Shown: positions 45,459 through 61,738 of the stretch, piece by piece | Layout of the letters: each line of letters starts with the position of its first letter | How positions within the stretch are numbered: position 1 is the first letter of the stretch | Origin: Shimia biformata | Lineage (GTDB): Bacteria > Pseudomonadota > Alphaproteobacteria > Rhodobacterales > Rhodobacteraceae | Assembly (NCBI RefSeq): GCF_016888515.1 | Contig: NZ_JAFEJK010000001.1 | Location: 1,211,475 to 1,275,474, forward strand | Direction: 5' to 3' | Length of the DNA stretch: 64,000 bases | The notes under the pieces: generated by a model | Told to the model about the DNA's origin: nothing | What the model saw: the letters and a program-made list of their open reading frames with translations, nothing else | Databases searched by the model: none | Program-made: the position numbers and the translations under genes

Positions 45459-45548
45459 GGAGACGTGGCCGAGTGGTCGAAGGCGCTCCCCTGCTAAGGG
45501 AGTAAACGGGAAACCGTTTCGAGGGTTCGAATCCCTTCGTCTCCGCCA
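45459..45548 (+). tRNA. tRNA-Ser (anticodon GCU)
   Basis: A 90-nt class II tRNA with encoded CCA. Acceptor stem GGAGACG pairs with CGTCTCC. The anticodon stem CTCCC/GGGAG encloses CTGCTAA, giving anticodon GCT. The long variable arm (ACGGGAAACCGT) is the serine hallmark, and the T-loop is GGTTCGAATCC. An IS6-family element begins 5 bp after its end. Confidence 0.95.
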
Positions 45549-45552
45549 CAAC

Positions 45553-46370
45553 GGCGCTGTCAAAGGAACTCAGGTCACAGCGTGCAAGGTGCTGACATGG
45601 CGTCCGGCAATGACCAATCGATCGCCGTTCCGCTACTTTCGCACTTCACCCGAGATCATCCGCCTTGCGGTGATGAAGTATGTCCGGTTTCCATTATCAC
45701 TTCGCAATGTCGAAGAACTGTTGCATGAGCGCGGCATCGACGTGAGCTACGAGTCTGTCCGTTTTTAGTGGCAGAGGTTTGGGCCGAAAATCGCCTCTGA
45801 AATTCGCAGGAAACGATCGCAATCGATGCGGCACTATTCAAACTGGAAGTGGCACCTGGACAAGTTGTTTGTGAAGATCAACGGCGAGCGGCACTGCTTG
45901 TGGCGAGCTGTCGATCACGAGGGCGAAGTGCTGGAAAGTTTTGTCACGAAGGCTCGTGATAAGCAAGCTGCATTGAAATTCCTCAAGAAATCAATGCGTA
46001 GGTATGGCCGACCGAAAGCGATCGTGACTGATGGGCTCCGGTCCTACGGTGCTGCGATGAAGGAAATTGGCAACGTACGTCGGCAGGAAACTGGGCGCTG
46101 GCAGAACAATCGGGCCGAGAATTCTCATCTGCCATTTCGACGACGAGAACGGGCGATGAAAGGCTTTCGACGATTGCGAAGTCTGCAGAAATTCGTCTCC
46201 GTCCACGCATCTGTTCTCAACCTTTTCAATTCGGACCGTAGCCTTCATTCCAGACCAAGTTTCAAGTTGAACCGTTCTGCAGCTCTTGCCGAGCGGCGCC
46301 AACTTTGTGCTGAATAAAGGGCAGTAATCCTGTCCGGGCTGGGACTAGTTCGAAGCTGTCTGACAGCACC
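45553..46370 (+). mobile_element. IS6-family insertion sequence (818 bp, inactivated)
   Basis: GGCGCTGTCAAA (45553-45564) and TCTGACAGCACC (46359-46370) are imperfect terminal inverted repeats (10 of 12). They bracket one transposase frame on the + strand at the family's usual total length. No 8-bp target duplication is seen (GCCACAAC on the left, GGCACTTA on the right), so one flank has been rearranged. The left end is right next to tRNA-Ser; the right end abuts a truncated second copy. Confidence 0.8.
45610..46317 (+). pseudogene. IS6-family transposase with in-frame amber codon
   Basis: From ATG 45610 the frame runs 235 codons to 46317 with one internal stop, TAG at 45766-45768, between SYESVRF and WQRFGPKIA. 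The family has Trp here (RFWWNRF-like), so a single TGG to TAG change is the likely lesion. The DDE residues remain readable: HLDKLF (first Asp), VTDGLRSY (second Asp) and NNRAENSH (Glu). An ATG at 45826 could yield a shorter product that lacks the N-terminal DNA-binding part. Confidence 0.88.
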
Positions 46371-48011: not shown

Positions 48012-51000
48012 ATGCCATCAGCGTCGAGGCCAGCCCCTGAGACAGCGCCGTCATCGGCCATGGAGCAGCGACGGCATGTGTCGGTCATGTTTGCCGACAT
48101 GGTGGGCTATACTGCTGCGCTTGAACCCCTCGACCCAGAAGAGGCGCTTTCGTTAACACGCGAGATCTACGACTTCCTATGCAATGCTGTGCATGCAGAG
48201 GGTGGTCGGGTCAGCGGGTTTGGCGGCGACAGCATAATGGGGATTTTCGGCCTTTCTGAACGGCATGAAAACCCGGCGCTGAACGCCAGTCACGCAGCCT
48301 TGGCCGTGCATGAAGAGTTTGACCGGCAGGCGGCTGCATTGCGGGAGAGGTTCGGCATATTACCCAGCATGCGGGTCGGAATTAGCACCGGTCATGCAAT
48401 TGTTGCTCTTATGGATGATGACGGGTCGTCGCCCACGCTGATTGGACACACGGTTAACCTGGCATCACGGATTGAGGGGCTGGCCGGTGCGGGAAATACA
48501 CTGATTTGCGATACCACGCGCAGCATGCTTGCTGGGCTGGCCGAGGTAGAGCATTTCGGGGTCAAGACCATATCCGGGATCACCAAGCCGCAAACCCTGT
48601 GGAAATTGAAGTCCATTGTGCCGGGGGCGACGCGGTTCGATGCCTCCCGCGCCCGTGGTCTCAGCCTTTTTGTGGGACGAGATAGCGAACTGGACACAAT
48701 TCTGACGGCGCATCGCGACTCGAAGAAAGGGCATGTCGTGGTGGATGTCGTCGCCGAACCGGGGTCCGGGAAGTCTCGGCTGGTGCATGAGTTTCTTGAG
48801 CGCATTCAACCGGAAGAACCACGGGTGTTCCTTGGCCAATGCGCCGCTGACGGGGGGGACACGGCCTTTTTGCCGTTCGAGATGATCGTGCGCGCAGCAT
48901 TCGGAATCCGCGAAACGATGTCCCAAAAAGAGATCGCGTCACACCTTTCTGCCGGTCTCAAGGCATCCGGGCTGGCGTCCGCCGAAAATCAGGCGCTGCT
49001 TCTGAACTTTCTTGGTCTCAAGGCGCCATCTGAACCGCTGCAGCGGCTGGATAGCGTCCTGATCGGTCTGCGCACTCGTGATCTTCTGCAAGCCTTGCTT
49101 GAGGAATCCTGCAAGTCCGGTCCGGTCATTATGGTGATGGAAGACATCCATTGGATTGACCAGGCCTCGGCAAATCTGCTGGAACGCATCATCGAGAACG
49201 AGGCGGTCTCGAACCTTCTTATCATTCATACCCGGCGAACCGGTTATCCGATGTCATGGGAAGACTGCCCAAGTTGCCGCCAAATCCGCCTGCGGCCCCT
49301 CGGCGAGAAGGAAATTGGGGACTTCGTGGCAGAGCGGCTTGATGTGCCTGAAATCCCGGCGGACCTTGAAAGGCAGTTGGCCGAGCGCTCTGGTGGCAAC
49401 CCGCTGTTTGCCGAAGAGATCGTGCAATTCCTGCTTGAGACCGGGGCGCTGATCGTTACCGACGGCAAGGCGACTTTTGACACGACAGCAGGTGCGGCAA
49501 CCCTGCCCACTAGTGTCACGGTTCTGCTTGCCGCCCGCGTCGATGGGTTGACGCCCGATCAGCGCAGGCTTTTGCAGGTGGCGTCCGCAATTGGACGGCG
49601 GTTTGATACCGGCCTGCTGGACCTTGTGATGGATGACCCTGCCGGGGTGCGCGGATCACTTCACGCTCTTTCCGCATTGGACATGCTGCGCCAAGAGGAA
49701 AAGGATGGCGCGACGGAATATGTATTCAAACACGCGCTTTTGCAGGATTGCGTCTATGACACGTTGCTCAACGACCAGCGCGAGGCGCTGCACCTGAAGA
49801 TCGCCGAAAGCATCGAGAAGCGAAGTGGAGAAAGGCCGGGCGAAGCGGCGGCGCAACTGGCCTATCACTTCGGACTGACCAAATGTACGGAACGGGCTTT
49901 TTACTATTCGGTGCGGGCCGGCCGTCGCAGCATGCGCGTGTTTTCCCTCGGAGAGGCGGAAAACGCGTTTGTCGCGGCTTTTGACGCATACCACAAGAAC
50001 CCGGATGTGATCGAGGATGCCGCGCTTGGCGAATTCCTGGCCGATTACGCCCGCTGCCTTGATCTGTCGCTCAAGATCAATTCACTTTTGTCGCTCGCGG
50101 ATGAGGCCTTGCCGATATTCCAACGCGTTGGTGACAGTCGCGCCCGGGCCATATTCATGCATCACTTTTCCATTGCTCTGACCTGGAATGGGCGGTTCCC
50201 GGACGGGTATCGCGCGGCCTGCGAACTGGTTGAAATCTCAAACCGCCTGGATGACCCGGTAAGCGATGCATATGGACGTGTGACCGAGCTTGCGATTTCC
50301 ATTTACGCCGCTCCCAAGTCAAATGCGATATTTGCCGAGGCCCGGCAAAGAATAGATGCGTTGTTGGCGGAAGTGGACGATCCGTACTTGGACAATTTCC
50401 ACCGGGCGCACATGGGGTGGGATGCCATGACCCGCGGCCGCGTGAATGATGCGCGCTTGGAAGCCGAAAAAATGATTGCTCACGGCCACGCGACCAACGA
50501 TCCGCGGGCGCTTGGCTATGGCACGGCAATGCTGGCATTGATCGCAATGCTTTCGGATGATTACGCGACTGCGCTGCAGCTTTCCGAACTGGCGCATGAG
50601 TTCAGCCGCGTGGAATTCGAAAAGAGCATCGCCAGCGCCGCTCGGTTCGGGGCGCTGATCCCGTCGGGCAAACTTGAGGCGGCACCGGACGTCGCCGCAT
50701 TTGTCGACTCGTGCAGGTCACGCGGGTTGCAACTGATCCTGACCGGACCAGAACCGACACTGGCCATCGCGCGTGCGATTCAAGGCGACATCGACGAAGC
50801 CGTCAAAGACCTTGAGGCGATCATCGCAGGGCACGACGCGGCAGGCCGTGTGGGGTCCGCCGATCTGGTGCGGTTTTATCTCTGTGAACTCTACCTCTCT
50901 GTTCTGTTCGGCGAAGGGGATGCGTCGCTTGGGGTGCTTTGGCGCAATCGCCGCAGCATTCTCAGGATCATGCTTTCGGGTGAAAAGACTGTTGCAAGGC

Positions 51001-51212
51001 TGGTCGAAAAAGTGCGCGAAAACCCGCAATACGATGCGGATGGCCACTATGTCGGGCGCTGTGAAATGTTGCTGGGACTTCTCTATGCGGCGCGCAAGAA
51101 ACGTGATCTGGCACGCGTCCATCTGGGCAAAGCGCGACAGATCATTGTCCAATTCGGACCGTCACCGATGTTGCAACGGATCGAAAAGGCCTATGCAGAC
51201 TGTTCCAAGTGA
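48012..51212 (+). CDS. Class III nucleotide cyclase-AAA ATPase-TPR-like signalling protein
   Basis: 1066 residues, no signal or membrane segment. Order: cyclase domain (about 20-200) with FADMVGYT (metal Asp29), GFGGDSIMGIFG (Asp73) and HTVNLASRIEG (Asn149, Arg153); an AAA/STAND-type ATPase (about 218-560) opening FVGRDSEL, P-loop EPGSGKS (Lys254) and MVMEDIHWID (Walker B); then a long helical TPR-like C-terminal half. The two usual base-selecting positions are Gly/Ser before Asp73 and His146, not the Lys/Asp pair of adenylate cyclases, so nucleotide product is uncertain or the domain may be regulatory. It converges on the DyP operon. Confidence 0.85.
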   Translation: MPSASRPAPETAPSSAMEQRRHVSVMFADMVGYTAALEPLDPEEALSLTREIYDFLCNAVHAEGGRVSGFGGDSIMGIFGLSERHENPALNASHAALAVHEEFDRQAAALRERFGILPSMRVGISTGHAIVALMDDDGSSPTLIGHTVNLASRIEGLAGAGNTLICDTTRSMLAGLAEVEHFGVKTISGITKPQTLWKLKSIVPGATRFDASRARGLSLFVGRDSELDTILTAHRDSKKGHVVVDVVAEPGSGKSRLVHEFLERIQPEEPRVFLGQCAADGGDTAFLPFEMIVRAAFGIRETMSQKEIASHLSAGLKASGLASAENQALLLNFLGLKAPSEPLQRLDSVLIGLRTRDLLQALLEESCKSGPVIMVMEDIHWIDQASANLLERIIENEAVSNLLIIHTRRTGYPMSWEDCPSCRQIRLRPLGEKEIGDFVAERLDVPEIPADLERQLAERSGGNPLFAEEIVQFLLETGALIVTDGKATFDTTAGAATLPTSVTVLLAARVDGLTPDQRRLLQVASAIGRRFDTGLLDLVMDDPAGVRGSLHALSALDMLRQEEKDGATEYVFKHALLQDCVYDTLLNDQREALHLKIAESIEKRSGERPGEAAAQLAYHFGLTKCTERAFYYSVRAGRRSMRVFSLGEAENAFVAAFDAYHKNPDVIEDAALGEFLADYARCLDLSLKINSLLSLADEALPIFQRVGDSRARAIFMHHFSIALTWNGRFPDGYRAACELVEISNRLDDPVSDAYGRVTELAISIYAAPKSNAIFAEARQRIDALLAEVDDPYLDNFHRAHMGWDAMTRGRVNDARLEAEKMIAHGHATNDPRALGYGTAMLALIAMLSDDYATALQLSELAHEFSRVEFEKSIASAARFGALIPSGKLEAAPDVAAFVDSCRSRGLQLILTGPEPTLAIARAIQGDIDEAVKDLEAIIAGHDAAGRVGSADLVRFYLCELYLSVLFGEGDASLGVLWRNRRSILRIMLSGEKTVARLVEKVRENPQYDADGHYVGRCEMLLGLLYAARKKRDLARVHLGKARQIIVQFGPSPMLQRIEKAYADCSK

Positions 51213-51246: not shown

Positions 51247-52647
51247 TCATAGACCCTGTGCCGCCATGCTACGAATGGCCGGCAGGCTTGGCAAAAACAG
51301 ATAAGCCCCCCCTCGAGGGTGAACAAAGCGCGGCAGACCGTGAAGGCGGAAACGCCCGCCATCGCGCAATTTCATGTCAAACCAGCTCGTGTCGCGGCAA
51401 TTGGCGCCCAGAAGCGGGTCGTTTGAACCGGTGATTTCGGGGTCTTGCAAGCCCAGGTTCAGCCAGTCGGACATGATCGCCTCGAACTGCGCGCTGATGC
51501 TTGCGCCAATGAAGTTCCCCAAGAGTCCGCGTTTTTCAGTGTCCGGGTTCTTCGGGTCAAACGGGGGGCCATAGGGCATGCCCCGACGCACCAGGCGCCT
51601 CGTGTAGTTGGCCATGCGCTGAACAATGGGGCCACCACGCGGATTGCACCGGCGCATATGCGCCCCGGCCGGGCAGCGCGAGACGACGTTATAATCGAAA
51701 TTCGTAAGCGAGACACCCTGCGGCGGGTTCGGGCTTTCCGGTGAGCTTTCAACAGGTGTGCCCTTGCGCCAGCGGCCGCACATTTGTGCTGCCACCAATT
51801 CGCGCAGCGCCCCATGCAGATCCAGACCCTCGGACACCCACCACGGATCATCGAGATCCAGCAAGTCCTTGGCGAGGTCGTTTTCCAGAAGAACCCTTGC
51901 AGAGGCCGAAAGCCAGCTCTCAAAACCGGCGCAGTCCTGTTCAAGCACGCGGAACGCATCGAAGGTGCCGTTCTTCAACAGAACGCTGGGATGCCGCCCG
52001 CCAAACCAGACACTGTCGTGCAGGCTGGGATGCCCCAGCAGAAGCGTCCCCAGCGGGTCGCTTGGTTCCGAGACGTCTTTTTGGTCCCGATCATGCACCG
52101 CGTCGATCTTGGGTTGCGAGATGCTGTCCCTGTATCCGAAGAACACCTTGTCATTGGGCAATGCGATCCCGTCTCGTGTGCCAAGTATGTTGAAGAAATG
52201 ACTGACCTGGACTTGCACCCCGTCCAGAACCATCTCGGTATCGGAATAGATGGATGCGACCAGGTGAATGCGCTCTGGGTGATTGAACGGAGCATCCCAA
52301 TGGGTCGGCGCGCTTGTCCCGACATCCCCGATCTTGGTGGCGCGATGTGCCATGCCTTCGCGGAAATCCGTTGGGAACTGGGCAAGGTCCGCGGCTGTCA
52401 ATCCCAGAGCCCGCAACCCCTGAAAGGTAATTCCGATGTTGAAGCAACGGTCCGGGCCGGGGGGCGCCCATTGCCGTTCGCGCGTGATACGTGGAACAAA
52501 CTCGTTCCCCGCCTCGGCCGCGAGGGCCAGGAAACCGCATGCTTTGCGCCGGTCGATGATTTCAAGCATCAGGTACCGCACGCGATCAAACTTGTAGCCG
52601 CGCAGGATATTGCCTTGAAGCTCGTCAGGGTCGAAGTGTTCGCTCAC
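51247..52647 (-). CDS. DyP-type haem peroxidase
   Basis: 466 residues, large for the family and like the fungal/class D/V type. GYRDSISQP (171-179) is the GxxDG motif with Asp174, but the last Gly is Ser. CPAGAHMRRCNPRGG holds the proximal His330. The distal Arg is in RRGMPYGPPFDP (about 355), followed by IGASISAQFEAIMSDW. No signal peptide and no encapsulin-targeting tail were seen. It is the last gene of a three-gene operon, its ATG overlapping the previous stop (ATGA). Confidence 0.9.
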   Translation of the reverse strand: MSEHFDPDELQGNILRGYKFDRVRYLMLEIIDRRKACGFLALAAEAGNEFVPRITRERQWAPPGPDRCFNIGITFQGLRALGLTAADLAQFPTDFREGMAHRATKIGDVGTSAPTHWDAPFNHPERIHLVASIYSDTEMVLDGVQVQVSHFFNILGTRDGIALPNDKVFFGYRDSISQPKIDAVHDRDQKDVSEPSDPLGTLLLGHPSLHDSVWFGGRHPSVLLKNGTFDAFRVLEQDCAGFESWLSASARVLLENDLAKDLLDLDDPWWVSEGLDLHGALRELVAAQMCGRWRKGTPVESSPESPNPPQGVSLTNFDYNVVSRCPAGAHMRRCNPRGGPIVQRMANYTRRLVRRGMPYGPPFDPKNPDTEKRGLLGNFIGASISAQFEAIMSDWLNLGLQDPEITGSNDPLLGANCRDTSWFDMKLRDGGRFRLHGLPRFVHPRGGAYLFLPSLPAIRSMAAQGL

Positions 52648-53360
52648 CAGCCTTCTCCGAATTTCTGCCGAATTTGCGCCGCCGCGATACCGGGATAGGC
52701 ACGGTATCCCCCGCCAAGAGAGACATTCGGGTTAGCGGTGAATTGCAGCACCATGGCGCGCGGCAGGGTGCGCAAATCATGCTGTTCCGTTCCCGGTGCG
52801 ATCCCTTTTGCCTGATCCTGAAGGTCAAACAGATCACCGGGAAAATCCGGAACCTGAAAAAGGTCATGGGCATGGACCCAGTCAATGAATTTGTCGGCAT
52901 TTTCAGATGTCGGCTTGAGCGCTTCGCCCCCTTCAACATGATCCATGATCGCGTCGAAAACATTGCCGATCGCGACAATGAAATCGCGGATGTAGTTGCT
53001 GAAATCACCATCATACGCCGAGATCATGCACAAATTGTTCCCAACAAGCAGAAACCGGGCGAAATGCACCGTGCCGACACTGTCAAGACCGGCGAAAATT
53101 TCATCGGCATTCTGCGCAATCGCCTGTGCAACCTCGGCGCGGCCAAGCGGAGAGGGGTCCTTGAGCGGCATGATGAGGTTCATCATACGTTGAAGGTTCT
53201 CGCTTGGTTGCGTCGCCTCACGCGGCCCGCCCGGAAGCTTGGGCTTGGGATCGCGCCATTTCCAGTATGGAATGACGATGACGCGCGACAAGAACCGGAA
53301 CCAGCCCTTCTTGGGCAGGTCATTGACATATTGGTCGAGCCAGCCGGGTTTATCCCTCAT
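52644..53360 (-). CDS. Uncharacterised protein of the peroxidase operon
   Basis: 238 residues. The aromatic/basic N-terminus has KKGWFRFLSRVIVIPYWKW (residues about 14-32), which may associate with a membrane. A central block VHFARFLLVGN followed by AYDGDFSNYIRDFI and DHVEGGEA resembles, from memory, a domain near DyP-type peroxidases in other bacteria. The C-terminus has MVLQFTANPNVSLGGGY. The ATG at 53360 follows AAGGAGAG. It overlaps the fusion gene's stop by 11 bp and the DyP start by 4 bp. No function is known to me. Confidence 0.72.
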   Translation of the reverse strand: MRDKPGWLDQYVNDLPKKGWFRFLSRVIVIPYWKWRDPKPKLPGGPREATQPSENLQRMMNLIMPLKDPSPLGRAEVAQAIAQNADEIFAGLDSVGTVHFARFLLVGNNLCMISAYDGDFSNYIRDFIVAIGNVFDAIMDHVEGGEALKPTSENADKFIDWVHAHDLFQVPDFPGDLFDLQDQAKGIAPGTEQHDLRTLPRAMVLQFTANPNVSLGGGYRAYPGIAAAQIRQKFGEGW

Positions 53361-55542
53361 TTGCGCTCTCCTTTGCGAATGGGCAGGGCTTGGCGTCGCG
53401 CCATTCACTGGATTTTTCATAGGCCAGCTTGCGGATTTGCAGAACCTCGTCTTCCGATGCGTCAATGCCATCGGTCAGTAGCATCGGATTAAAGCTGAGG
53501 TCCTCCGCCGCCTGACCCATGAACCTGTCCAGCGTCAAGGTGCCCATGATTACGCGCGGGCGATGCGGTGGCCAAGCGCGCGCGGGGTCCTTGAAGTCGT
53601 CGCCGTCCTCGCCAATCGTCATCATCAGAAGAAACCTGGTCGGTCCCGGCTCAAGCCGTTCTTTCAACGCGTCGTTGAGATAGTTCTCGGTCAGCTTGTT
53701 CGCATCGGCGGCCGTGGTTGTGTCAATCGGAGCGACCCCGTCCACTGGCTGCCATTCAAATCGCACATATCGTTTGTTGGCGTCCTGTCCCGCACCGGTC
53801 ACAATGAAAGTATGCACCGCAAAATAGGCCGCGCGGTTGTATGAACTGGGCGCACCAATCGACGCGGCGTCCAGCACGGCCTGACGCGCAAACGGGTTTT
53901 CCTTGGCGTATTTCATTGCGCCTTCATCCGGGCGATAAACCTCGCCGGGGTAGGGGTCACGCCTCGGCAACATCAGGCGCAGGTAGTCACCGATCTTGGC
54001 CAGCGGTCTTTCCATCGAGAACTTCTTGGGCTCTGCCGCAAGCGCAAAGTCATAGAACTGTTCGGGAGTCGACGTGAAGAACTCTCGCAGGGTCATCGCG
54101 ATCAAGTCGGTGTCGGATCCATCTGGCAGGTGAAAGCGGGTCGCCATCCCGCGCACGTCAGACCAGCCGTCGCGCCGGGACGCCGCGCCAGATCCGTTCG
54201 AGAAACGGACCGTGACCGGGACACCCAGTCTTTTGTCGGGCTCCCCGGCCGGATTTTCGCGATCTGGTCTGGGTTTTGCCCTCTGGATCAGGGCCTCAAG
54301 ATCGAAATGTGCTGCCCGGCAATACCGGCTGGCGACTTTGGACGGGGTGAAATGGCCCGTGGCGCAGACACCAAAGGCGTGAACTGGCCGCATTCCGCCC
54401 GCTTCGGGCTTGCGGCCAACGGATGAATAAAGTTGGTTCACCAGCGTTTCCGCCAGTTGCGGTTTGACCGGGCTTCCAAGCGTCAGCCTGGCCAAATCAT
54501 TGAAATGCAGGGTAACTCCCGGCGTATCACTGCGCCCCTTGAAGATTTTTCCTGTGGTCGAAGCGGTCACCCAGACATCCTTCATATCCGGGCCACCGAA
54601 GCACAGGTTCGTGGTCATCATGTCCTCGAAAGGAACATGTTTCGGCGGTGTCTTGCAGGTATGGTCGAAGATCGTAAGCCCGCCATTAATCAACGTGCCA
54701 ACCACGATGTTGCCGTCGGCGGCAACCTTGAGGCTGTCGAGCCACTGATACCCCGGCAGCGTTGCCACAACCCGCCCCGGCATCCCGGCAAGTTCCCCGG
54801 CAAGCGGGGTCAGCTTCTCATCAAGGTCCAGTGCCCATAGCCGGGCCGACACCGTGTCCGAGACGTAAAGCACCGTTTTGACCCCATCGGGCAAGTCACT
54901 TTCGCCCGGTGGCGACAGGCCGATGCCGTTGGGCGTTTCAAATCCTTCGCCATGTGGGGTCGTGGGGGTCGCGACCTTTTGAATTGAAGTTCCATCGATC
55001 GAGGCGCGGTAAACTGCGCCCTTGATCAGCTTGTCGGGATACTGAACGCCTGTGTCTGTGAACCAGAATTTGCCGGTTTCGTCGAACACGATGTCATCCG
55101 GCGTCAGAAGGCCGACGTTGTCATAGAGTTTCGTGACTTTGAATGTCTGAAGGCAAACGCGTTGGATATACCCGCCCGAAAAATTCGCTGAGGGGCCCGC
55201 CGGATCAGGGATCGTGATCGTCGGCTCTTTTTTGTCCGACGCCGCTTTCCCGCCCGACTGCGGCGCCTTGGCCCTGGGATTGAGGTCAGATGGGTGAACG
55301 TCGACAAAATTGTAAACACCACCATTGTTGCAAACATAAAGCGCGCCATCGGGTCCGACGGCGGCCCCATTCGGGCCATCCCCGAGATGCACGACTACCT
55401 CCGGTTCCTGTCCCTCAACGATATGAACCAGGTCGCCATTCCGGATATCCACAACAAGCAAACTGCCATCGCCAAGCGCCACTGGCCCTTCGGGAAAACC
55501 TTTCAGAATTGCAAATTCACGAAACCCACTAAACTTAGTCAT
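53350..55542 (-). CDS. Fused SMP-30/lactonase-like and catalase-family peroxidase protein
   Basis: 730 residues. Residues about 1-360 form a six-bladed SMP-30/gluconolactonase propeller with its metal ligands visible: Glu in GFPEGPV (about 18), Asn in ETPNGIGLSP (about 205) and Asp in YVSDTVSARLW (about 229). Residues about 375-730 form a catalase-family domain: RPVHAFGVCATGHF with the distal His (about 388), VPVTVRFSNGSG, DVRGMATRFH, and the haem-Tyr motif RKLAYEKSSEWR (Tyr about 708) near the C-terminus. The distal Asn position is not conserved. No signal peptide. The ATG at 55542 follows AAAGGAGGCG. First gene of a three-gene operon with DyP. Confidence 0.87.
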   Translation of the reverse strand: MTKFSGFREFAILKGFPEGPVALGDGSLLVVDIRNGDLVHIVEGQEPEVVVHLGDGPNGAAVGPDGALYVCNNGGVYNFVDVHPSDLNPRAKAPQSGGKAASDKKEPTITIPDPAGPSANFSGGYIQRVCLQTFKVTKLYDNVGLLTPDDIVFDETGKFWFTDTGVQYPDKLIKGAVYRASIDGTSIQKVATPTTPHGEGFETPNGIGLSPPGESDLPDGVKTVLYVSDTVSARLWALDLDEKLTPLAGELAGMPGRVVATLPGYQWLDSLKVAADGNIVVGTLINGGLTIFDHTCKTPPKHVPFEDMMTTNLCFGGPDMKDVWVTASTTGKIFKGRSDTPGVTLHFNDLARLTLGSPVKPQLAETLVNQLYSSVGRKPEAGGMRPVHAFGVCATGHFTPSKVASRYCRAAHFDLEALIQRAKPRPDRENPAGEPDKRLGVPVTVRFSNGSGAASRRDGWSDVRGMATRFHLPDGSDTDLIAMTLREFFTSTPEQFYDFALAAEPKKFSMERPLAKIGDYLRLMLPRRDPYPGEVYRPDEGAMKYAKENPFARQAVLDAASIGAPSSYNRAAYFAVHTFIVTGAGQDANKRYVRFEWQPVDGVAPIDTTTAADANKLTENYLNDALKERLEPGPTRFLLMMTIGEDGDDFKDPARAWPPHRPRVIMGTLTLDRFMGQAAEDLSFNPMLLTDGIDASEDEVLQIRKLAYEKSSEWRDAKPCPFAKESANEG

Positions 55543-55584
55543 CAAGTACGCCTCCTTTGAGGGAAGCACGGCGGATTCCTATTG

Positions 55585-55628
55585 GGACATGGTTCAATCG
55601 TGTATGTCCGGTTACATGACAAGTAACC
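55585..55628 (-). promoter_or_regulatory. Double palindromic operator upstream of the peroxidase operon
   Basis: Two abutting inverted repeats lie 43-86 bp before the fusion gene's ATG: GGACAT-N13-ATGTCC (55585-55609) and GGTTACATGACAAGTAACC (55610-55628; 16 of 19 positions symmetric). On the minus strand the second contains TTGTCA, a possible -35 element. The arrangement fits repressor or activator control of the operon. Between here and 55751 I see no gene. Confidence 0.5.
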
Positions 55629-56002: not shown

Positions 56003-56956
56003 TCAGGAGTGCGAAGCAAAGATGCCGGGGGGCGAGGGCAGTCTTCTTTCATACTCGCGCCGGCTGACTTCCAGGATTTTGTTGTGCAGCTTGGGGACGC
56101 TGGGGTGGGGCACCCGGTTTCGCATTGTCGCAATCATCCACTTGCCCGAAATGCCCAGGTCAATCGGGACCTGTTCAAACAGGCCAAGGGCAAGTTGATT
56201 TCGGACGGTTCCGGTTGTTGTCATCAGAACGAGGTCACTGTCCAGCACGGCATCGCGCAGCGCAGCGATATTGGTGCTGTTGATCGCAATCAAAGGCGGG
56301 GAATTGGCGAATTCGACGCCCAGGGCGCTTGCGAATTCGCGTAGCAAATCCTTTGGAAAATGGGTTCCGGCGAGTTTGTAGCGCAACAGGTCAGAGACCC
56401 TTGGCTTCACTATCTTCAAGACCGGATGCCCCGATCGGCAAAACGCGCCGCTGGTTTGCGGTGGCAGTTGTGTCAGGTCCAGATCGTCCACATCCGAATG
56501 CAGATCCCGCGCGTCACCGACAATCAGATCATAGGTTTCGTCACGCAGGCCCGCGACGAGATGCGTCGTCTCATCCACGATCAGATCGAGCCTGACGTTG
56601 GGATGCGCATCGTGCCACTCTGCGATAATCGGCCCGGCCAGCGAGGTGGAGTAGACCGCAGTCATGCCGACGCGAATATGTCCGGTCTGACCTGTGCCCA
56701 GGTTGGCTATCGTCTGGTCCAGGTTGCGCGCTTCGAACAGGACGGCCTCGACCCGGTCATAAATATTTCGTCCCGCCGAGGTCAGACGGACGGGGCGTTC
56801 CGACCTTTCAATCAGCGTCATTCCCAAGCGAGTTTCAAGGCTGCGAATCGAGTTGCTTAGCGCGGGTTGAGAGATATTGGCCAGCTCTGCAGCCCGGGCG
56901 AAGCTGCGCTCCTGTGCGACCAGTTTGAAATGTTGGAGTTGGGTCAAATTCTGCAT
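56003..56956 (-). CDS. LysR-family transcriptional regulator
   Basis: 317 residues. The N-terminal winged helix has QHFKLVAQERSFARAAELAN and ISQPALSNSIRSLETRLGM. The C-terminal effector domain begins HIRVGMTAVYSTSLAGPI. It is divergent from the TRAP transporter operon with a 212-bp gap that holds an ATTC-N7-GAAT site, so it most likely controls that operon in response to a pathway metabolite, and represses itself. Confidence 0.9.
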   Translation of the reverse strand: MQNLTQLQHFKLVAQERSFARAAELANISQPALSNSIRSLETRLGMTLIERSERPVRLTSAGRNIYDRVEAVLFEARNLDQTIANLGTGQTGHIRVGMTAVYSTSLAGPIIAEWHDAHPNVRLDLIVDETTHLVAGLRDETYDLIVGDARDLHSDVDDLDLTQLPPQTSGAFCRSGHPVLKIVKPRVSDLLRYKLAGTHFPKDLLREFASALGVEFANSPPLIAINSTNIAALRDAVLDSDLVLMTTTGTVRNQLALGLFEQVPIDLGISGKWMIATMRNRVPHPSVPKLHNKILEVSRREYERRLPSPPGIFASHS

Positions 56957-57051
56957 GGGTTCGGTTTCCGATGTCTTTTCTGCGTATCTTACGTTGCGTC
57001 ACCGCGCGCACTGGGACGCCCAAGTTCCCGAGAAGGCTAGTTTTTGTTGAT

Positions 57052-57105
57052 AACATTCGTCAAGTGAATGTTGTTATTAAAAAATTGTATTGGAATGAAT
57101 GTTGT
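57052..57105. promoter_or_regulatory. Candidate LysR operator for the TRAP operon
   Basis: AACATTC-GTCAAGT-GAATGTT (57052-57072) is a perfect 7-7-7 inverted repeat containing the LysR T-N11-A form (ATTC-N7-GAAT). The half-site GAATGTTGT is repeated at 57066-57074 and 57097-57105, 31 bp apart (three helical turns). It lies 64-117 bp before the dctP-like ATG, in an AT-rich region. Confidence 0.62.
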
Positions 57106-57168
57106 CTCTCTCCGATACTGGGGATCGCCAACGTCCGGACCAGACCTGACGCGGCAAGGAGGAGCAAA

Positions 57169-58179
57169 ATGAAAACCATCAAATCACTTGCGATCGCCGG
57201 CCTTGTGGCCCTTGCGACCGCGTCATCTGCACATGCCGAAACCGTATTGAAGCTTGCCACGGCAGCGCCGGAACAAACCCCCTGGGGTGTTCAGGTGAAC
57301 CGTCTGGCCGAACTGATTGCCAAGGAAAGCGACGGCCGCCTCAAGGTTGAGCCCTACTTCAACTCGCAGCTCGGCACCGAGAATGACACGCTGGCACAGC
57401 TGGCGCGGGGCCGGATCGAAATGGGTCTGTTCACGGTCAGCGCCGCGGGCCAGCAAGCCCCTGAAGTTGGCCTGATGCAACTTTATGGCTATTTCGACAA
57501 CAACGACCAGCGCGCCTGCGTGCAGGACAATCACCTGACCGAAGATATCCGCGCACGTCTGGCACCCAAGGGCGTTTACTTTGGCGCATGGGCGGAAGTC
57601 GGCAACGGCTATGTGATGTCGGACCGCGAAATCACCAGCGCCGAAGACCTGAAAGGTCTGAAGGTCGGGATGTCGGTCAACAAGATCAACACCGAGCATT
57701 GGAAAGTATTCGGTGCCAACCCCGTTCCGCTGAGCCCGGGCGAGGTTGCCTCGGCCGCATCGACCGGCCTGATCGACGTCTATCCGACGGTCTATACCTT
57801 CTACATTCCCTCTGGCCTGAGCAAGATTTACCCGGTTGTGACCGAGTATAACTATGCCAACGGCCCCGGCATGTGGGCAGTCAGCCAACGTGTTTTGGAC
57901 GGCTTGAGCGAAGAAGATCAAGCGGCCATCAAACGCGCGTTTGCTGACCCTGCCTTCTCGTCCAAGGCGATCATGGACGAAATCTTTGCCTTCGAGGACA
58001 AGATGCGCGCACTGCACGAATCCCAGGGCGGCAAGATCGTCACTCTGGATGACGCGCAGATCGCCAGCTTCCGTGACAAGCTTCCGCCGTGGTGGGAAGC
58101 CATGGCCGCCGACCACGGCGACGATGGCAAGGCTATCCTGAAGCTGATGGAAGACGGCAAAGCTGCCTGCAAAGGTTGA
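57169..58179 (+). CDS. TRAP transporter substrate-binding protein (DctP family)
   Basis: 336 residues with a signal peptide cleaved near AHA-ETV (residue about 23), so periplasmic. LKLATAAPEQTPWGVQVNRL and ELIAKESDGRLKVEPYFNSQ are the DctP opening. GLKVGMSVNKINTEHWKVFG and GANPVPLSPGEVASAASTGL hold the typical ligand-binding arrangement. The ATG follows AAGGAGGAG. It is the first gene of the TRAP unit and is followed by a strong stem-loop. Ligand unknown; TRAP ligands are mostly organic acids. Confidence 0.92.
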   Translation: MKTIKSLAIAGLVALATASSAHAETVLKLATAAPEQTPWGVQVNRLAELIAKESDGRLKVEPYFNSQLGTENDTLAQLARGRIEMGLFTVSAAGQQAPEVGLMQLYGYFDNNDQRACVQDNHLTEDIRARLAPKGVYFGAWAEVGNGYVMSDREITSAEDLKGLKVGMSVNKINTEHWKVFGANPVPLSPGEVASAASTGLIDVYPTVYTFYIPSGLSKIYPVVTEYNYANGPGMWAVSQRVLDGLSEEDQAAIKRAFADPAFSSKAIMDEIFAFEDKMRALHESQGGKIVTLDDAQIASFRDKLPPWWEAMAADHGDDGKAILKLMEDGKAACKG

Positions 58180-58204
58180 GCCGAACCGCCTGAAACCAAA
58201 AGGC

Positions 58205-58229
58205 GCCGCCCCGATACCGTCGGGGCGGC
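58205..58229 (+). promoter_or_regulatory. Intercistronic stem-loop between TRAP P and Q genes
   Basis: GCCGCCCCGA (58205-58214) pairs perfectly with TCGGGGCGGC (58220-58229), loop TACCG, with no T tract after it. Such hairpins after a binding-protein gene often stabilise its mRNA or reduce read-through, giving more binding protein than permease. Confidence 0.65.
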
Positions 58230-58256
58230 ATCCCCCCAAATCCGAAAGCGGATCCC

Positions 58257-58811
58257 ATGACAAATCAATCCGTCCCCGTGCCGGTTTCGGCACTTCTGAA
58301 GATATGGCATGTCCTTGAGCGATGGATCGCCGTAATTGCCTTTTCCCTGATCGGTGCGCTGATATTTGCGGATGTCGCTGGTCGAGAATTCGTTGGTCCC
58401 GTGGGAACAGCACTGGGTTTTGACATGGGGGCAACGGGTATCTATGGCGCCCGTAAGGTTTCGTTGTTCCTGCTGGTGATCGGGGCTTTTGCCGGTCTTG
58501 GGGTCAGCGTTGCCACCGGCACCCAGATCGTGCCGCGTATCGCCTTCAAATGGGTGCCGGAAAGCTGGGGCCCGCATGTCGATCGCCTGTCCAATCTGCT
58601 GAGCGGCCTCGTCTTCACCGCTGTCGCCTATTACGGTTGGGTCTTTGTCAGCGCCTCGCGCGACATTGGCACCGTCATGCCGGGGCTGGATACGCCGGTC
58701 TGGATCATCCAGGCGGCCATTCCCATCGGCTTCCTGTCAGCGGCCATCCGCTATTTCATTTTTACAATCTGGCCGGGCAGCGCCCCCGCACGTGAGGAGA
58801 TTCCAGAATGA
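58257..58811 (+). CDS. TRAP transporter small permease subunit (DctQ family)
   Basis: 184 residues with four hydrophobic segments (residues about 22-45, 65-88, 115-135 and 150-170). LERWIAVIAFSLIGALIFAD and VAGREFVG are the DctQ-type opening. Its stop overlaps the dctM-like ATG by 4 bp (ATGA). Confidence 0.87.
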   Translation: MTNQSVPVPVSALLKIWHVLERWIAVIAFSLIGALIFADVAGREFVGPVGTALGFDMGATGIYGARKVSLFLLVIGAFAGLGVSVATGTQIVPRIAFKWVPESWGPHVDRLSNLLSGLVFTAVAYYGWVFVSASRDIGTVMPGLDTPVWIIQAAIPIGFLSAAIRYFIFTIWPGSAPAREEIPE

Positions 58812-60064
58812 GCGCCCTTGGACTTCTCGCTCTTGTTCTTGGTCTGCTGGTTCTGCGCCAGACCCTGACCGTCATCCTGATCGCTTCGATCGCCTACGTT
58901 CACCTTGTCTGGGGCCACGGTTATCTCGACTACATCGTCGAAGACATGTGGACCTCGCTCAACAAGGAACTGATCCTGTCGGTGCCCTTGTTCCTCTTGT
59001 GCGGCGCGGTCATGACCGAAGGCACCGCCGCCCGCCGTCTTGTGCGGATCGTGCGCGCCATCACTGCTCCGACCCGTGGCGGGCTGGGTGTTGCGGCGAT
59101 TATCTCTTGTGCGGTGTTCGCGGCCATCTCGGGCTCGTCGATCGTGACCATGATCGCGGTTGGCTCGGTGCTTTATCCGGCCATGCGCGAAGCGGGTTAT
59201 ACCAACCGCTTTGCCTTGGGCACGGTTGTCTCGGGCGGTACGCTGGGTATCATCATCCCGCCGTCGATCCCGCTGATCCTCTATGGTCTCGTCACCGAGA
59301 CGTCGATTGTCGACCTGTTCCTGGCTGGCATTTTGCCGGGGCTGGTACTGATCGGGCTGATGACGGCCTATGCGATCTGGGCCAACCGCAACCAGCCGCC
59401 GCAGAAGATGGACTGGACCGAGTTGCGTGAGGCGCTGCGCGAAGGCATCTGGGCGGCGCTGTTCCCTGTGATCCTGCTGGGCGGTATCTATTCAGGCTAT
59501 TACTCGCCCACCGAAAGTGCGGCCGTGGCGCTGGTCTATGCCCTGTTCATCGAGTTCTTCATCCACCGCGAAATGAACCTGAAAGGGTATTTCAACGTGG
59601 TCACCGAAACCGCCAAGCTGGGTGGGGCGCTGTTCCCGCTGATCGCTGTGGCCCTGTCGCTGAACCTGATCCTGACGGAATACCGTGTACCGGCGCAGAT
59701 GGTGGAACTGGCCGAGATGTGGATCACCAACCCAATCGCCTTTATCCTGATCGTGAACGTTCTGTTGCTGATCGTCGGTGCTTTCATGACCACCAACGAG
59801 GCGATCCTGATCCTGGGGCCGATCCTGATGCCGGTGGCACAGGCCTATGGGTTCCATCCGGTGCATTTCGGGATCATCATGATCGTGAACCTTGAGATCG
59901 GCTACCTGACACCACCGGTTGGCATGAACCTCATGGTGGCCATGGTCACGTTCAAGCAGAAGTTTGGCGAACTGGTGATGTCGGTTCTGCCCTATATCGC
60001 CGTCATGGTTCTGGGCCTGATCCTGATCACCGTGTTCCCGTGGCTGTCGCTGGGTCTGCTGTAA
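58808..60064 (+). CDS. TRAP transporter large permease subunit (DctM family)
   Basis: 418-residue membrane protein with about 11-13 hydrophobic segments. Family motifs: SVPLFLLCGAVMTEGTAARR, AAISGSSIVTMIAVGSVLYP, GGTLGIIIPPSIPLILYGL and YYSPTESAAVALVYAL, then LEIGYLTPPVGMNLMVA. It carries the sodium-coupled transport path with DctQ. The 3' end faces an ABM-domain gene on the other strand. Confidence 0.93.
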   Translation: MSALGLLALVLGLLVLRQTLTVILIASIAYVHLVWGHGYLDYIVEDMWTSLNKELILSVPLFLLCGAVMTEGTAARRLVRIVRAITAPTRGGLGVAAIISCAVFAAISGSSIVTMIAVGSVLYPAMREAGYTNRFALGTVVSGGTLGIIIPPSIPLILYGLVTETSIVDLFLAGILPGLVLIGLMTAYAIWANRNQPPQKMDWTELREALREGIWAALFPVILLGGIYSGYYSPTESAAVALVYALFIEFFIHREMNLKGYFNVVTETAKLGGALFPLIAVALSLNLILTEYRVPAQMVELAEMWITNPIAFILIVNVLLLIVGAFMTTNEAILILGPILMPVAQAYGFHPVHFGIIMIVNLEIGYLTPPVGMNLMVAMVTFKQKFGELVMSVLPYIAVMVLGLILITVFPWLSLGLL

Positions 60065-60078
60065 TGACGCGCGCCGTC

Positions 60079-60381
60079 TCAGCCCTGAAAGACAGGGCCG
60101 AAGACTTCGGCCAGCTCGATTTCAGCCACAAGGTGGCCGATGTCGGCAAGCTGGGCGGCGCGCGCCGGATGTGTGCCCCAGGCGTGATAGCTTTCCGCGT
60201 CACGCCAGCGGGCAAGGACACAAACCCGGTCGGGATCTTCGACACTGGCGCGCAACTCGCCGTCGATGAACCCCGGAATCGCATCGGCGCATTCGCTGAG
60301 AACGCCGCGGTCGAGAAATGTCTTCATGGCCGCCGGTCCCTGACCGGGTAGGACGCGTACAACGAGTAGTGACTGAAACAT
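60079..60381 (-). CDS. ABM-domain (antibiotic biosynthesis monooxygenase-like) protein
   Basis: 100 residues forming a dimeric ferredoxin-like alpha/beta barrel fold: FQSLLVVRVLPGQG, PGFIDGELRASVEDPDR, and VLARWRDAESYHAWGTHPAR. ATG at 60381 follows AAGGAGC. It is encoded against the direction of the TRAP and amidohydrolase genes, and its start region is only 34 bp from the amidohydrolase ATG. May act as an oxygenase or a polyphenol/haem-binding enzyme; function not fixed. Confidence 0.8.
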   Translation of the reverse strand: MFQSLLVVRVLPGQGPAAMKTFLDRGVLSECADAIPGFIDGELRASVEDPDRVCVLARWRDAESYHAWGTHPARAAQLADIGHLVAEIELAEVFGPVFQG

Positions 60382-60415
60382 GGCGGCTGCTCCTTGAAGT
60401 CGGAAATGTGAGGTA

Positions 60416-61726
60416 ATGATGGAACAGACAAGCACACACCCGCGCCCGATCCTAGGGCAACGTGACGGCACGCCGGTTCTGTTTCGTAACGCGCGCGTCT
60501 TTACCGGCACATCCGACACACTGCTGGACGGGTATGACGTGCTGGTGGCCGATGGCCGTATTGCCAATATCGCAAAGGGCATCGATGCCGATGCCAGCTG
60601 GCAGGTGATCGACGCAGCCGGTCGCGTGATGAGCCCGGGCTTCATTGACGCCCACGCCCACGTGATGTTCCAGATGTCTTTTCCCGAAGCATTCGGTTCG
60701 GACGAGTTTTACTGGGCATACAAGGCGACCGCCGCGGCTGAAACCTACCTGATGAACGGCTTTACCACGATCCGCGATGTGGGCGGCAATTGCTTTTCCC
60801 TGAAAAAGAATATCGACGCTGGGGTTCTGGCGGGACCGCGCATCTATCCCTCGGGGCCGATGATCTCGCAAACATCCGGTCACTCGGATCACCGCCAGGA
60901 TTGCCAGAAATGCGCCGCGATCCTGAATGAACCGTCGGTGCCGATGAAATACCACATGGTTGCCGTGGCCGATGGCCATGACGGTGTGCTGGTGGCGGTG
61001 CGCGAGGCGTTCCGGCGCGGTGCAAGCCAGATCAAGATCTGCACCACGGGCGGCACCGGGTCCTATGCCGACCCGCTGGATGTGACGCAATTCCTGCCTT
61101 GTGAAGTGCAGGCTGCCGTTGCCGCCGCCAAGGACTGGGGCACCTATGTTTGCACTCACGCCTACCACGATGAGGGCATCCGCCGCGCGGTGGAGAATGG
61201 GGTGCAATGCGTCGAGCATGCCAACCTTGCCACTGAACAGACGCTGCGGATGATGATGGATCAGGGTATCTGGCTCTCGCCGCAGGTGATTGTCTATACC
61301 AAGCATCCCCTTGGATATACCGAGGATCAGAAAGCCAAGCATGACGAAGCCTATGATGGCATCGACAACATGATGACGACCGCGCGGAAAATCGGTTTTG
61401 AGAAGATCGCATTTGGCTCGGACATCATCACCGATCCCGAATTGCTGGCCCGCGTCAATGACGAGTTCAAGTTCCGCACCAAATGGTTCACCCCGTTTGA
61501 GGTGATGCGGCAGGCGACCGCGCTTTCCGGCGAGTTGCTGGCGATGAGCGGCCCGCGCAATCCCTACAAGGGCAAGCTTGGCGTGATCGAAGAAGGCGCG
61601 TTTGCGGACCTTTTGCTGATCGACGGCAATCCCCTTGACGATATCGACGTTGTTACCCGACCGGCGGAAACACTGCACCTGATCATGAAAAACGGTGCGA
61701 TTCACAAAAACACGCTGGCGCAATAG
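60416..61726 (+). CDS. Metal-dependent amidohydrolase (imidazolonepropionase-like)
   Basis: 436 residues: metal ligands in FIDAHAHVM (His-x-His), the bridging Lys in QIKICTTGGTGSYADP, His in CTHAYHDEG, His in CVEHANLA and Asp in FGSDIITD. The C-terminus has EEGAFADLLLIDGNPL. This is the amidohydrolase 1 layout seen in imidazolonepropionase-like and Xaa-Pro dipeptidase-like enzymes. ATG at 60416 or 60419 is equally possible. Just upstream of the serine hydrolase (12 bp gap). Likely hydrolyses a C-N bond of the imported substrate. Confidence 0.88.
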   Translation: MMEQTSTHPRPILGQRDGTPVLFRNARVFTGTSDTLLDGYDVLVADGRIANIAKGIDADASWQVIDAAGRVMSPGFIDAHAHVMFQMSFPEAFGSDEFYWAYKATAAAETYLMNGFTTIRDVGGNCFSLKKNIDAGVLAGPRIYPSGPMISQTSGHSDHRQDCQKCAAILNEPSVPMKYHMVAVADGHDGVLVAVREAFRRGASQIKICTTGGTGSYADPLDVTQFLPCEVQAAVAAAKDWGTYVCTHAYHDEGIRRAVENGVQCVEHANLATEQTLRMMMDQGIWLSPQVIVYTKHPLGYTEDQKAKHDEAYDGIDNMMTTARKIGFEKIAFGSDIITDPELLARVNDEFKFRTKWFTPFEVMRQATALSGELLAMSGPRNPYKGKLGVIEEGAFADLLLIDGNPLDDIDVVTRPAETLHLIMKNGAIHKNTLAQ

Positions 61727-61738
61727 CAGGAGGAAACC

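Follow-up and report, generated by a model that had tools for sequence, protein, structure and literature searches.

A DyP-type peroxidase gene, the preceding ORF2 and a second haem enzyme form the conserved heart of an operon in the window, the 64,000-nucleotide stretch of Shimia biformata DNA analysed here. The encoded proteins may constitute a peroxide- or hydroperoxide-driven multi-haem module with ORF2 as the obligate partner of the DyP and with lipid-like substrates, a reading of the sequence comparisons to which we assign a probability of about 0.5. The module is probably cytosolic, as no signal peptide was seen by eye. The sequence-only reading had known of no described system of such composition, and no description of the module was found in the literature searched (one library) among the matches listed. 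The text available from PMC8786180 does no more than name a DyP-type peroxidase alongside a catalase family protein among tabulated stress genes, and that from PMC8312274 concerns lignin-peroxidase queries matching adenylate cyclases.

Gene arrangement of the locus

The operon comprises three genes on the minus strand (Table 1). The overlaps of 11 bp between the fusion gene and ORF2 and of 4 bp between ORF2 and the DyP gene were real, as first read from the sequence. The upper boundary of 55628 proposed at that stage lies outside the listed open reading frame, and an alternative GTG start at 55569 would give a fusion protein of 739 aa. A unit of three genes was also incomplete, since it omitted the convergent cyclase gene, which belongs to the unit and is separated from the DyP stop codon by 34 bp.

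Table 1. Positions of the genes, domains and ribosome-binding site in the window.
Feature	Position	Strand	Remark
SGL–catalase fusion	55542..53350	minus	730 aa from ATG behind AGGAGG
AGGAGG, ribosome-binding, before ATG at 55542	55551..55556	minus	read from sequence
SMP-30/SGL propeller, lactonase-like half of fusion	54469..55542	minus	residues about 1-358; Pfam SGL
Catalase-related haem domain (mini-catalase) of fusion	53350..54447	minus	residues about 366-730; Pfam catalase
ORF2, unnamed family	52644..53360	minus	238 aa; no Pfam or NCBIfam match
DyP-type peroxidase	51247..52647	minus	466 aa; GTG start overlapping ORF2 stop; Pfam DyP_N
Class III nucleotide cyclase-AAA_16-TPR, convergent	48012..51212	plus	1066 aa; Pfam Guanylate_cyc, AAA_16

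The surroundings had been taken for an IS-flanked accessory region. One side of the operon does carry a single IS240/IS6-type transposase ORF (45826..46317) adjoining a tRNA-Ser. On the other side, a scan of part of the ORFs showed no transposase. The description was thus only half supported, and an IS-flanked island was rejected as an explanation.

Conservation and distribution of the module

Conservation of the gene order had been set beforehand as a test of the module. The order catalase-like gene, ORF2 and DyP on one strand was present in 30/30 close (type-A) loci, which had been picked by ORF2, and a chance overlap of open reading frames was rejected on this basis. With start codons chosen by script, 25 of 29 relatives shared the 4-bp overlap of ORF2 and DyP. 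In 63 of 64 loci picked by ORF2, this gene preceded DyP at a distance within 1.4 kb and was read from the same strand; the exception, L063, stops at a contig end. The reverse search agreed, with ORF2 upstream in 6/6 further loci fetched by DyP alone. As the loci are related to one another, these counts are not independent. The two genes did not touch in some loci, being up to 1362 bp apart in L091 and separated by an ORF in L060. Putative haem ligands were retained in both peroxidase domains throughout the alignments, and together with the gene order this supported the view of the three genes as one unit of peroxide-type parts.

The distribution of ORF2 was patchy. It was detected by sequence in 5 of 147 relatives, in at least 11 of 147 when distant copies were included, and in 26/398 of the phylum. 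The ORF2–DyP core was common to Deinococcus, a cyanobacterium and Proteobacteria. Thirteen plasmid matches were obtained, of which H4, H8 and H11 were left out. Neighbouring genes were tallied by tblastn with a panel of reference proteins, and the tallies thus cover the proteins listed in that panel and the stretches fetched.

The DyP-type peroxidase and its proposed partner ORF2

The DyP of the window exceeded the cut-off of the DyP_N profile (30.7 bits over 27.5) and scored 67 bits with TIGR01413, below the cut-off of 100.5. Its putative haem residues D174, H330, R354 and R355, with the distal Asp and proximal His, were retained in 30/30 rows. The distal motif GYRDS departs from a strict GXXDG; the fifth residue was G in 15, S in 12 and N in 3 of the 30 rows. 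The best solved relative was 8re2/8re3 (E 7e-44), the DyP DR_A0145 of Deinococcus radiodurans (PMC10820274), in which the motif is likewise broken at residue five, with Met in place of the Ser of the window. In the accessible part of that paper, DrDyP is reported to be in a six-coordinate low-spin state and to lack activity at physiological pH, its control by partner proteins is offered as a speculation, and the physiological roles and substrates of DyPs are described as unclear. The neighbours of the gene are not mentioned in that part. A D. radiodurans record shows an ORF2-like gene, 1 base, the DyP gene with the motif GYKDM and then a catalase-family gene. The locus resembles that of the window in its ORF2-like gene upstream of DyP and its catalase-family gene behind, but the order is ORF2-DyP-catalase instead of catalase-ORF2-DyP. 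It also has a 3-hydroxyacyl-CoA dehydrogenase gene, and no match to the lactonase or cyclase was found in the 14 kb fetched.

DyPs with partner genes are also known from the EfeB and encapsulin systems, where the partners are iron transport or capsid genes according to the sections available of PMC8197335, whereas the proposed partner in the window is ORF2. An encapsulin cargo was rejected, as no recognisable targeting tail was seen by eye at the C-terminus of the DyP.

ORF2 had no Pfam or NCBIfam match at E 1 and no PADLOC match at E 0.01. Ten alignment columns had at least 85% identity. These were the residues of the signature T97-x-H99-x-x-R102 ... D117-G118-x4-Y123-x2-D126-F127 together with P150 and P223, which fall outside the conserved core and are therefore not emphasised. 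An AF2 model of middling confidence (pLDDT 69.7) contained a predicted ferredoxin-like core at about residues 54-170. Its fold search was filled by polyketide cyclase, ABM and NIPSNAP-type dimeric alpha+beta barrels, with a best Z of 8.7 (rmsd 2.7, 100 residues), only slightly higher than the 7 to 8 usual for the tool when there is no clear match. Foldseek found nothing similar to the model at E <= 0.001, and no PDB sequence matched a distant ORF2 at E 1. ORF2 represents an unnamed family, with a ferredoxin-like core predicted from the model.

The core of the module would consist of a class-V-type DyP and ORF2, with ORF2 binding the DyP and either opening its haem site or presenting the substrate. 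Such a partner may explain why DrDyP seems inactive when studied alone. The presence of ORF2 in every long-enough locus, in both search directions, offers a direct test of the inactivity of DrDyP at neutral pH.

A mini-catalase or a cytochrome P450 as second haem enzyme

The catalase domain of the fusion scored 85.5 bits with the Pfam profile (cut-off 25) and matched residues 64-308 of the 320-residue chain 3e4w (E 3.5e-31). The alignment comprised 29 rows, L025 being left out because it is cut by a contig end. The putative haem residues, distal R385/H388 and proximal R704/Y708, occurred in 29/29 rows. The profile match with H388, R704 and Y708 places the domain in the catalase-related branch of the catalase superfamily. 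A distal Asn is a feature of true (monofunctional) catalases. It is absent in the window (M483/T484), and a true catalase was rejected; position 484 was T in 26, N in 2 and S in 1 of the 29 rows. Catalase-related allene oxide synthases carry Thr before the distal His and were rejected as well, since this residue was Val in 26 and Ile in 3 rows and never Thr. The minimal catalase-related protein 3e4w belongs to the same haem family, and its distal RxxH and proximal RxxxY are kept in the window. It is a stand-alone chain, whereas the domain in the window is fused to a lactonase-type propeller. The 3e4w protein is presumably active with organic hydroperoxides.

Profiles detected a mini-catalase in 44 and a cytochrome P450 in 17 of the 70 fetched loci, neither in 9 and both in none, as if the two filled one slot. 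Of 18 P450 frames 17 were counted; L056 has two, and the one at its far end, which keeps the I-helix acid, was left out. This acid is tied to O2 activation in P450s. It was kept in 2/17 module P450s and gone in 15/17, with Pro in 13, and its loss points away from O2 activation. Profile-checked single-frame fusions joined ORF2 to DyP (L056, L057), P450 to ORF2 and DyP (L081, L082, L083), DyP to P450 (L058) and DyP to catalase (L088). The exchange of a catalase fold for a P450 fold in one slot would, if true, be a clear non-homologous replacement and a guide to a shared substrate.

In the multi-haem module, peroxides, either H2O2 or more likely organic or lipid hydroperoxides, would be used in place of O2, and the second peroxide-using enzyme, a mini-catalase or elsewhere an acid-less P450, would act on the same substrate chain. 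Going further, we tentatively propose from the sequence patterns that ORF2 founds a new family and is an obligate subunit of a DyP branch. This two-component enzyme would be inactive or mis-tuned without ORF2 and, together with an O2-independent mini-catalase or acid-less P450, would run a hydroperoxide cascade with interchangeable haem folds.

The lactonase-like half of the fusion

The SGL domain was assigned by Pfam with 92.6 bits (cut-off 26.3), and a PDB sequence comparison gave 7ris/8djf as nearest solved chains (E 3e-46). Its metal ligands had been regarded as intact. This holds for the candidate ligands E18, N205 and D269, retained in 23/23 rows, but not for the fourth position, where the usual Asn is Asp149 in all 23. 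The lactonase was a separate gene in the loci of 22/29 relatives, fused in 0/29 and without a match in the fetched stretch of 7/29. The SGL–catalase fusion occurred in 1/147 genomes, and two other genomes matching both halves well have them in separate frames. It is a local novelty and not, as initially read, the essence of the system, which lies in ORF2–DyP and the second haem enzyme. The fusion in the window nevertheless serves as Rosetta-stone evidence that the lactonase belongs to the module. In the lineage of the window, the product would pass to this metal-dependent lactonase. AlphaFold gave no usable structure for the complete fusion protein (pLDDT 57).

A natural fusion of an antioxidant-type enzyme with an SGL propeller is also found in DrSOD of D. 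radiodurans, a Cu/Zn-SOD joined to a beta-propeller lactonase with a Ca site and weak lactonase activity (PMC12362111, available in part). According to the same text, the partner there is a SOD and no haem enzyme, in contrast to the haem-type catalase domain of the window, and the propeller site is Glu/Asn/Asn/Asp compared with Glu/Asp/Asn/Asp.

Neighbouring genes and possible substrates

The most likely substrates of the module would be lipid-derived hydroperoxides freed by a phospholipase. A patatin-like gene was present in 17/30 type-A loci and absent beside the operon in 13/30, the window included. The patatin of the relatives had no match in the window's own genome at E 0.001, which contained one other patatin-family match. 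In the type-B trio loci, oleate hydratase was near 6/10 and 3-hydroxyacyl-CoA dehydrogenase near 7/10; for comparison, oleate hydratase was over the cut-off in 12/190 genomes of the class. Of the six oleate hydratase loci, four (L053, L066-L068) carry almost the same plasmid cassette and count as about one event. The neighbours examined with Pfam included no lipoxygenase or dioxygenase that would make lipid hydroperoxides.

Some neighbours suit other substrates, namely the GMC oxidases of L087 and L089, the DUF4331 and NIPSNAP genes and a set of TOMM/cyanobactin genes close to L051. The DyP, the mini-catalase or P450 and the lactonase could tailor a specific non-lipid secondary metabolite, with ORF2 as a cyclase- or monooxygenase-like barrel enzyme, an explanation that we consider unlikely. 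It is consistent with the barrel folds nearest to the ORF2 model, with P450 and GMC oxidase neighbours, with three genes of L051 that lie upstream within about 8 kb and encode a cyanobactin-type protease, a protein binding TOMM leaders and a SagB dehydrogenase, and with domains of acyltransferase type next to L064 and of polyketide-cyclase type next to L055. However, the scan, which covered part of the neighbours, showed no multi-domain synthase for polyketides or peptides, and the sharing of the core by Deinococcus, a cyanobacterium and Proteobacteria argues for a general substrate.

Plain oxidative-stress defence, in which H2O2 and organic peroxides are removed with no dedicated product, appears equally improbable. 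The co-occurrence of peroxidase- and catalase-type parts and the presence of the module in D. radiodurans agree with it, but the patchy distribution of ORF2 does not, and the dedicated partner, the lactonase, the hydratase and the replacement by a P450 suggest that a product is made. A further objection is that DrDyP by itself lacks activity at physiological pH (PMC10820274, in the part available).

The sequence-only reading had favoured a pathway in which peroxide drives the conversion of an alcohol or aldehyde into a lactone, which the fused lactonase then hydrolyses. This pathway now seems very unlikely. The lactonase-type ligands E, N and D in 23/23 rows speak for it, as do GMC oxidoreductases beside two distant loci (L087 and L089), although the latter give alcohol or aldehyde oxidation little support and lipid-type neighbours were more frequent. 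No alcohol or sugar dehydrogenase occurred among nine type-A neighbours scanned, a small sample, and the seven relatives with no lactonase gene in the fetched stretch also speak against it.

The convergent cyclase

The cyclase gene product matched Guanylate_cyc with 55.1 bits (cut-off 21.9) and AAA_16 over its cut-off. D29 and D73 (metal Asp), N149 and R153 were present in 25/25 rows, as in class III cyclases, and the Walker residue K254 was kept. A class III cyclase–AAA–TPR gene was found in 26/30 type-A loci and none in the fetched stretch of 4/30 (both Bradyrhizobium loci, L009 and L010). It lay convergent beside DyP in 25/29 relatives, with a gap of -4 to 57 bp. The protein would supply the peroxide-driven module with cyclic-nucleotide control. 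A Pycsar-like defence against phages, in which the cyclase would be the sensor, was rejected as extremely improbable, since the match of the cyclase domain to the PADLOC PycC models (E 3.4e-12) is expected for any class III cyclase, the other three proteins had no PADLOC match at E 0.01 that could represent a paired cyclic-nucleotide effector, and the four loci named above had no cyclase in the stretch fetched. In L027, a gene for a cNMP-binding Crp-type regulator adjoins the operon.

Gene content of the operon

The three minus-strand genes of the sequence-only reading were present as it had described them, with overlaps of 11 bp (53360/53350) and 4 bp (52647/52644) as it had stated. Pfam assigned an SMP-30 propeller (SGL) and a catalase domain to the first protein and DyP_N to the third, while the Pfam scan found no domain in ORF2, the middle protein of 238 aa. 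The nearest solved relatives were the propeller lactonases 7ris/8djf for the SGL part, the 320-residue chain 3e4w for the catalase part and 8re2/8re3 for DyP. The accessible part of PMC10820274 identifies the latter two as Deinococcus radiodurans DyP DR_A0145 (DrDyP) and its M190G variant. The genes of the proposed three-gene unit are real; the unit itself had been drawn too small, omitting a convergent cyclase gene. The earlier observation is real and larger than first reported. All parts are of known families except ORF2, and the whole is filed as a peroxidase operon. No description of this module was found in the literature searched.

Genes of the window operon and single-frame fusions in related loci
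Feature	Position or locus	Strand or orientation	Remarks
SGL–catalase fusion	55542..53350	minus	730 aa; ATG at 55542 most likely start, 8 bases behind AGGAGG
ORF2	53360..52644	minus	sequence reading
DyP	52647..51247	minus	sequence reading
Class III cyclase–AAA_16–TPR protein	48012..51212	convergent to DyP	1066 aa; 34 bp beyond DyP stop
ORF2 + DyP in one frame	L056, L057		profiles
P450 + ORF2 + DyP in one frame	L081, L082, L083		1410, 1533, 1544 residues stop to stop
DyP + P450 in one frame	L058		profiles
DyP + catalase in one frame	L088		catalase profile E 6e-84, DyP profile 3e-98

Elsewhere in the window, at 45459-46317, a tRNA-Ser(gct) is followed by a 163-aa IS240/IS6-type transposase ORF where a GC dip begins (0.555 at 45-48 kb), possibly an island edge. 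At 56003-62938, a LysR regulator adjoins a TRAP transporter (DctP, DctQ, DctM), behind which come an amidohydrolase and a beta-lactamase-family protein; the set looks like a separate unit.

Conservation of the close family

The close family (type A) comprised 30 loci: 27 from a species-level genome collection, two from the window's family and the window. ORF2 was the query by which the 29 relatives' loci were fetched. The genes for catalase, ORF2 and DyP stood in the same order on one strand in 30/30 loci, including L025, whose catalase is truncated by the contig end. The exact 4-bp ORF2/DyP overlap recurred in 25/29 relatives, with start codons chosen by script. The cyclase was convergent to DyP in 26/30 loci, with stop-to-stop gaps of −4 to 57 bp in the 25 relatives having it; in L012 the cyclase gene runs off the contig.

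An SGL lactonase gene lay within the fetched stretch of 22/29 relatives, directly behind the cyclase in 21 and on the other side in one (L009). It was fused in none of the 29, unlike in the window, where the SGL copy forms the N-terminus of the catalase. No second close SGL copy was found in the window's genome (best other match 25% identity, E 3e-10). Among 147 genomes, only the window's had both halves in a single frame; G031 and G077 matched both halves well, but in separate frames. All 23 SGL rows, window included, shared an Asp at the classic Asn ligand position. The fusion is derived. Its point of origin is not claimed, because the window, which falls within the type-A rows of the DyP tree, has a long branch among unresolved forks.

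The window cyclase best matched the NCBIfam model of a TOMM-system kinase/cyclase, far below the cut-off (271 vs 705.75 bits). Distant cyclase genes (27-28% identity) were also convergent to ORF2-DyP outside type A (L102 5817-13601, L057 12672-14564), so the association with the cyclase may be older. In the accessible part of a lignin-peroxidase screen, bacterial lignin-peroxidase queries matched adenylate cyclases and TPR proteins (PMC8312274); certain database entries named 'lignin peroxidase' may be cyclases like the one at 48012-51212.

Pairing of ORF2 and DyP

The ORF2 profile was found in 12/385 genomes of the class and 26/398 of the phylum, the window's genome counted in both, and tblastn matched 13 plasmid records. 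Ten of these and further genome loci were examined, bringing the total to 64 loci. An ORF2-like stretch lay upstream of DyP on the same strand in 63/64 of these loci, all chosen by ORF2; the sole exception, L063, stops at a contig end. Matched stretches were at most 1362 bp apart among the rows listed, and some distant loci, such as L060, had an ORF in between. Because the loci had been picked by ORF2, a reverse test started from DyP. Searched with DyP, 147 relatives yielded matches in 11 genomes, five already known to have ORF2; the six fetched by DyP alone all had an upstream ORF2-like frame (E 5e-45 or better).

Conserved ORF2 residues across the 64 loci included T97, H99 (98%), R102, D117, G118, Y123 (100%), D126 and F127 (97%). 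The AlphaFold model (20 rows, pLDDT 69.7) had a beta-alpha-beta-beta-alpha core, and its structural matches were dimeric alpha+beta barrels, the best reaching Z 8.7 across 100 residues, which is suggestive of this fold, not proof. One DyP was preceded by three tandem ORF2-like stretches (L055 6713-8554); a protein nearby carries domains of the DUF4331 and polyketide-cyclase types. On a Sinorhizobium plasmid (L052 6854-9860), a NIPSNAP gene and DyP stood between two ORF2-like genes; upstream lay hemA, downstream a c-type cytochrome.

Fusions were checked with profiles run on stop-to-stop frames. The fused frame of L088 contained no Pfam domain at E 0.01. The large frames of L081, L082 and L083 had a middle part without assignment beside P450, the ORF2-like part and DyP. 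Across 70 loci (the 64 and the six fetched by DyP alone), iterated profiles found mini-catalase in 44, P450 in 17, neither in 9 and both together in none within the fetched stretches; the counts are given without p-value because the rows are kin. The P450 I-helix acid motif serves O2 activation, and hydroperoxide-using P450s often lack it. The acid was replaced in 15/17 P450s (Pro in 13, Gly in one, Ala in one), the Asp being kept in L036 and L056.

Proposed mechanism

A phospholipase or other source would supply a substrate that can be oxidised and is probably lipid-like, or the hydroperoxide of that substrate. Mini-catalase and DyP, whose putative haem residues were kept in all rows, would then use peroxide. 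Constant pairing and fusion suggest ORF2 as a binding partner that tunes DyP or feeds it. A bolder reading, tentative and at somewhat under even odds, makes ORF2-DyP an obligate enzyme of two components. Fusion and synteny point to the SGL lactonase opening a lactone product, and the cyclase may report on the pathway via a cyclic nucleotide.

The accessible part of PMC10820274 describes isolated DrDyP as a six-coordinate, low-spin protein that is inactive at physiological pH, and that stayed low spin when the unusual Met in the GXXDG motif was changed to Gly. Its authors suggest, as speculation, that DrDyP is governed in vivo by other proteins with which it interacts, and they name encapsulin. 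This work bears directly on the tuning proposal. In a D. radiodurans record, an ORF2-like gene lies a single base upstream of the DyP gene; that part of the paper makes no mention of this neighbour. The SGL domain fused to the D. radiodurans SOD had weak lactonase activity (accessible part of PMC12362111).

Neighbouring genes as substrate clues

A patatin-like phospholipase gene adjoined the operon in 17/30 type-A loci, upstream on the same strand in 14 and on the other strand in three; none lay beside the window operon. Adjacency, not presence, is the clue, because relatives commonly have a patatin (89/121 genomes over cut-off). The ten trio loci of type B (L035, L050, L053, L054, L065 to L069, L084), four of them near-copies of one cassette, had oleate hydratase nearby in six and 3-hydroxyacyl-CoA dehydrogenase in seven. 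Oleate hydratase was over cut-off in 12/190 genomes of the class. The TOMM/cyanobactin gene set upstream in L051 and the DUF4331 genes in L052 and L055 count against a lipid reading.

Individual neighbours were GMC oxidoreductases (L087, L089), an LCAT-type lipase (L036), a PhyH dioxygenase (L026) and a cNMP-binding Crp-type regulator (L027). The ORF2-DyP pair of L051 (1-10025) is on a cyanobacterial plasmid, downstream of the cyanobactin/TOMM-type genes. The near-identical cassette of L053, L066, L067 and L068 (TetR/thioesterase/hydroxyacyl-CoA dehydrogenase/oleate hydratase plus catalase-ORF2-DyP) was carried by plasmids from four genera (Sphingobium, Shinella, Agrobacterium and Novosphingobium); three of the copies have transposase genes no more than a few kb away.
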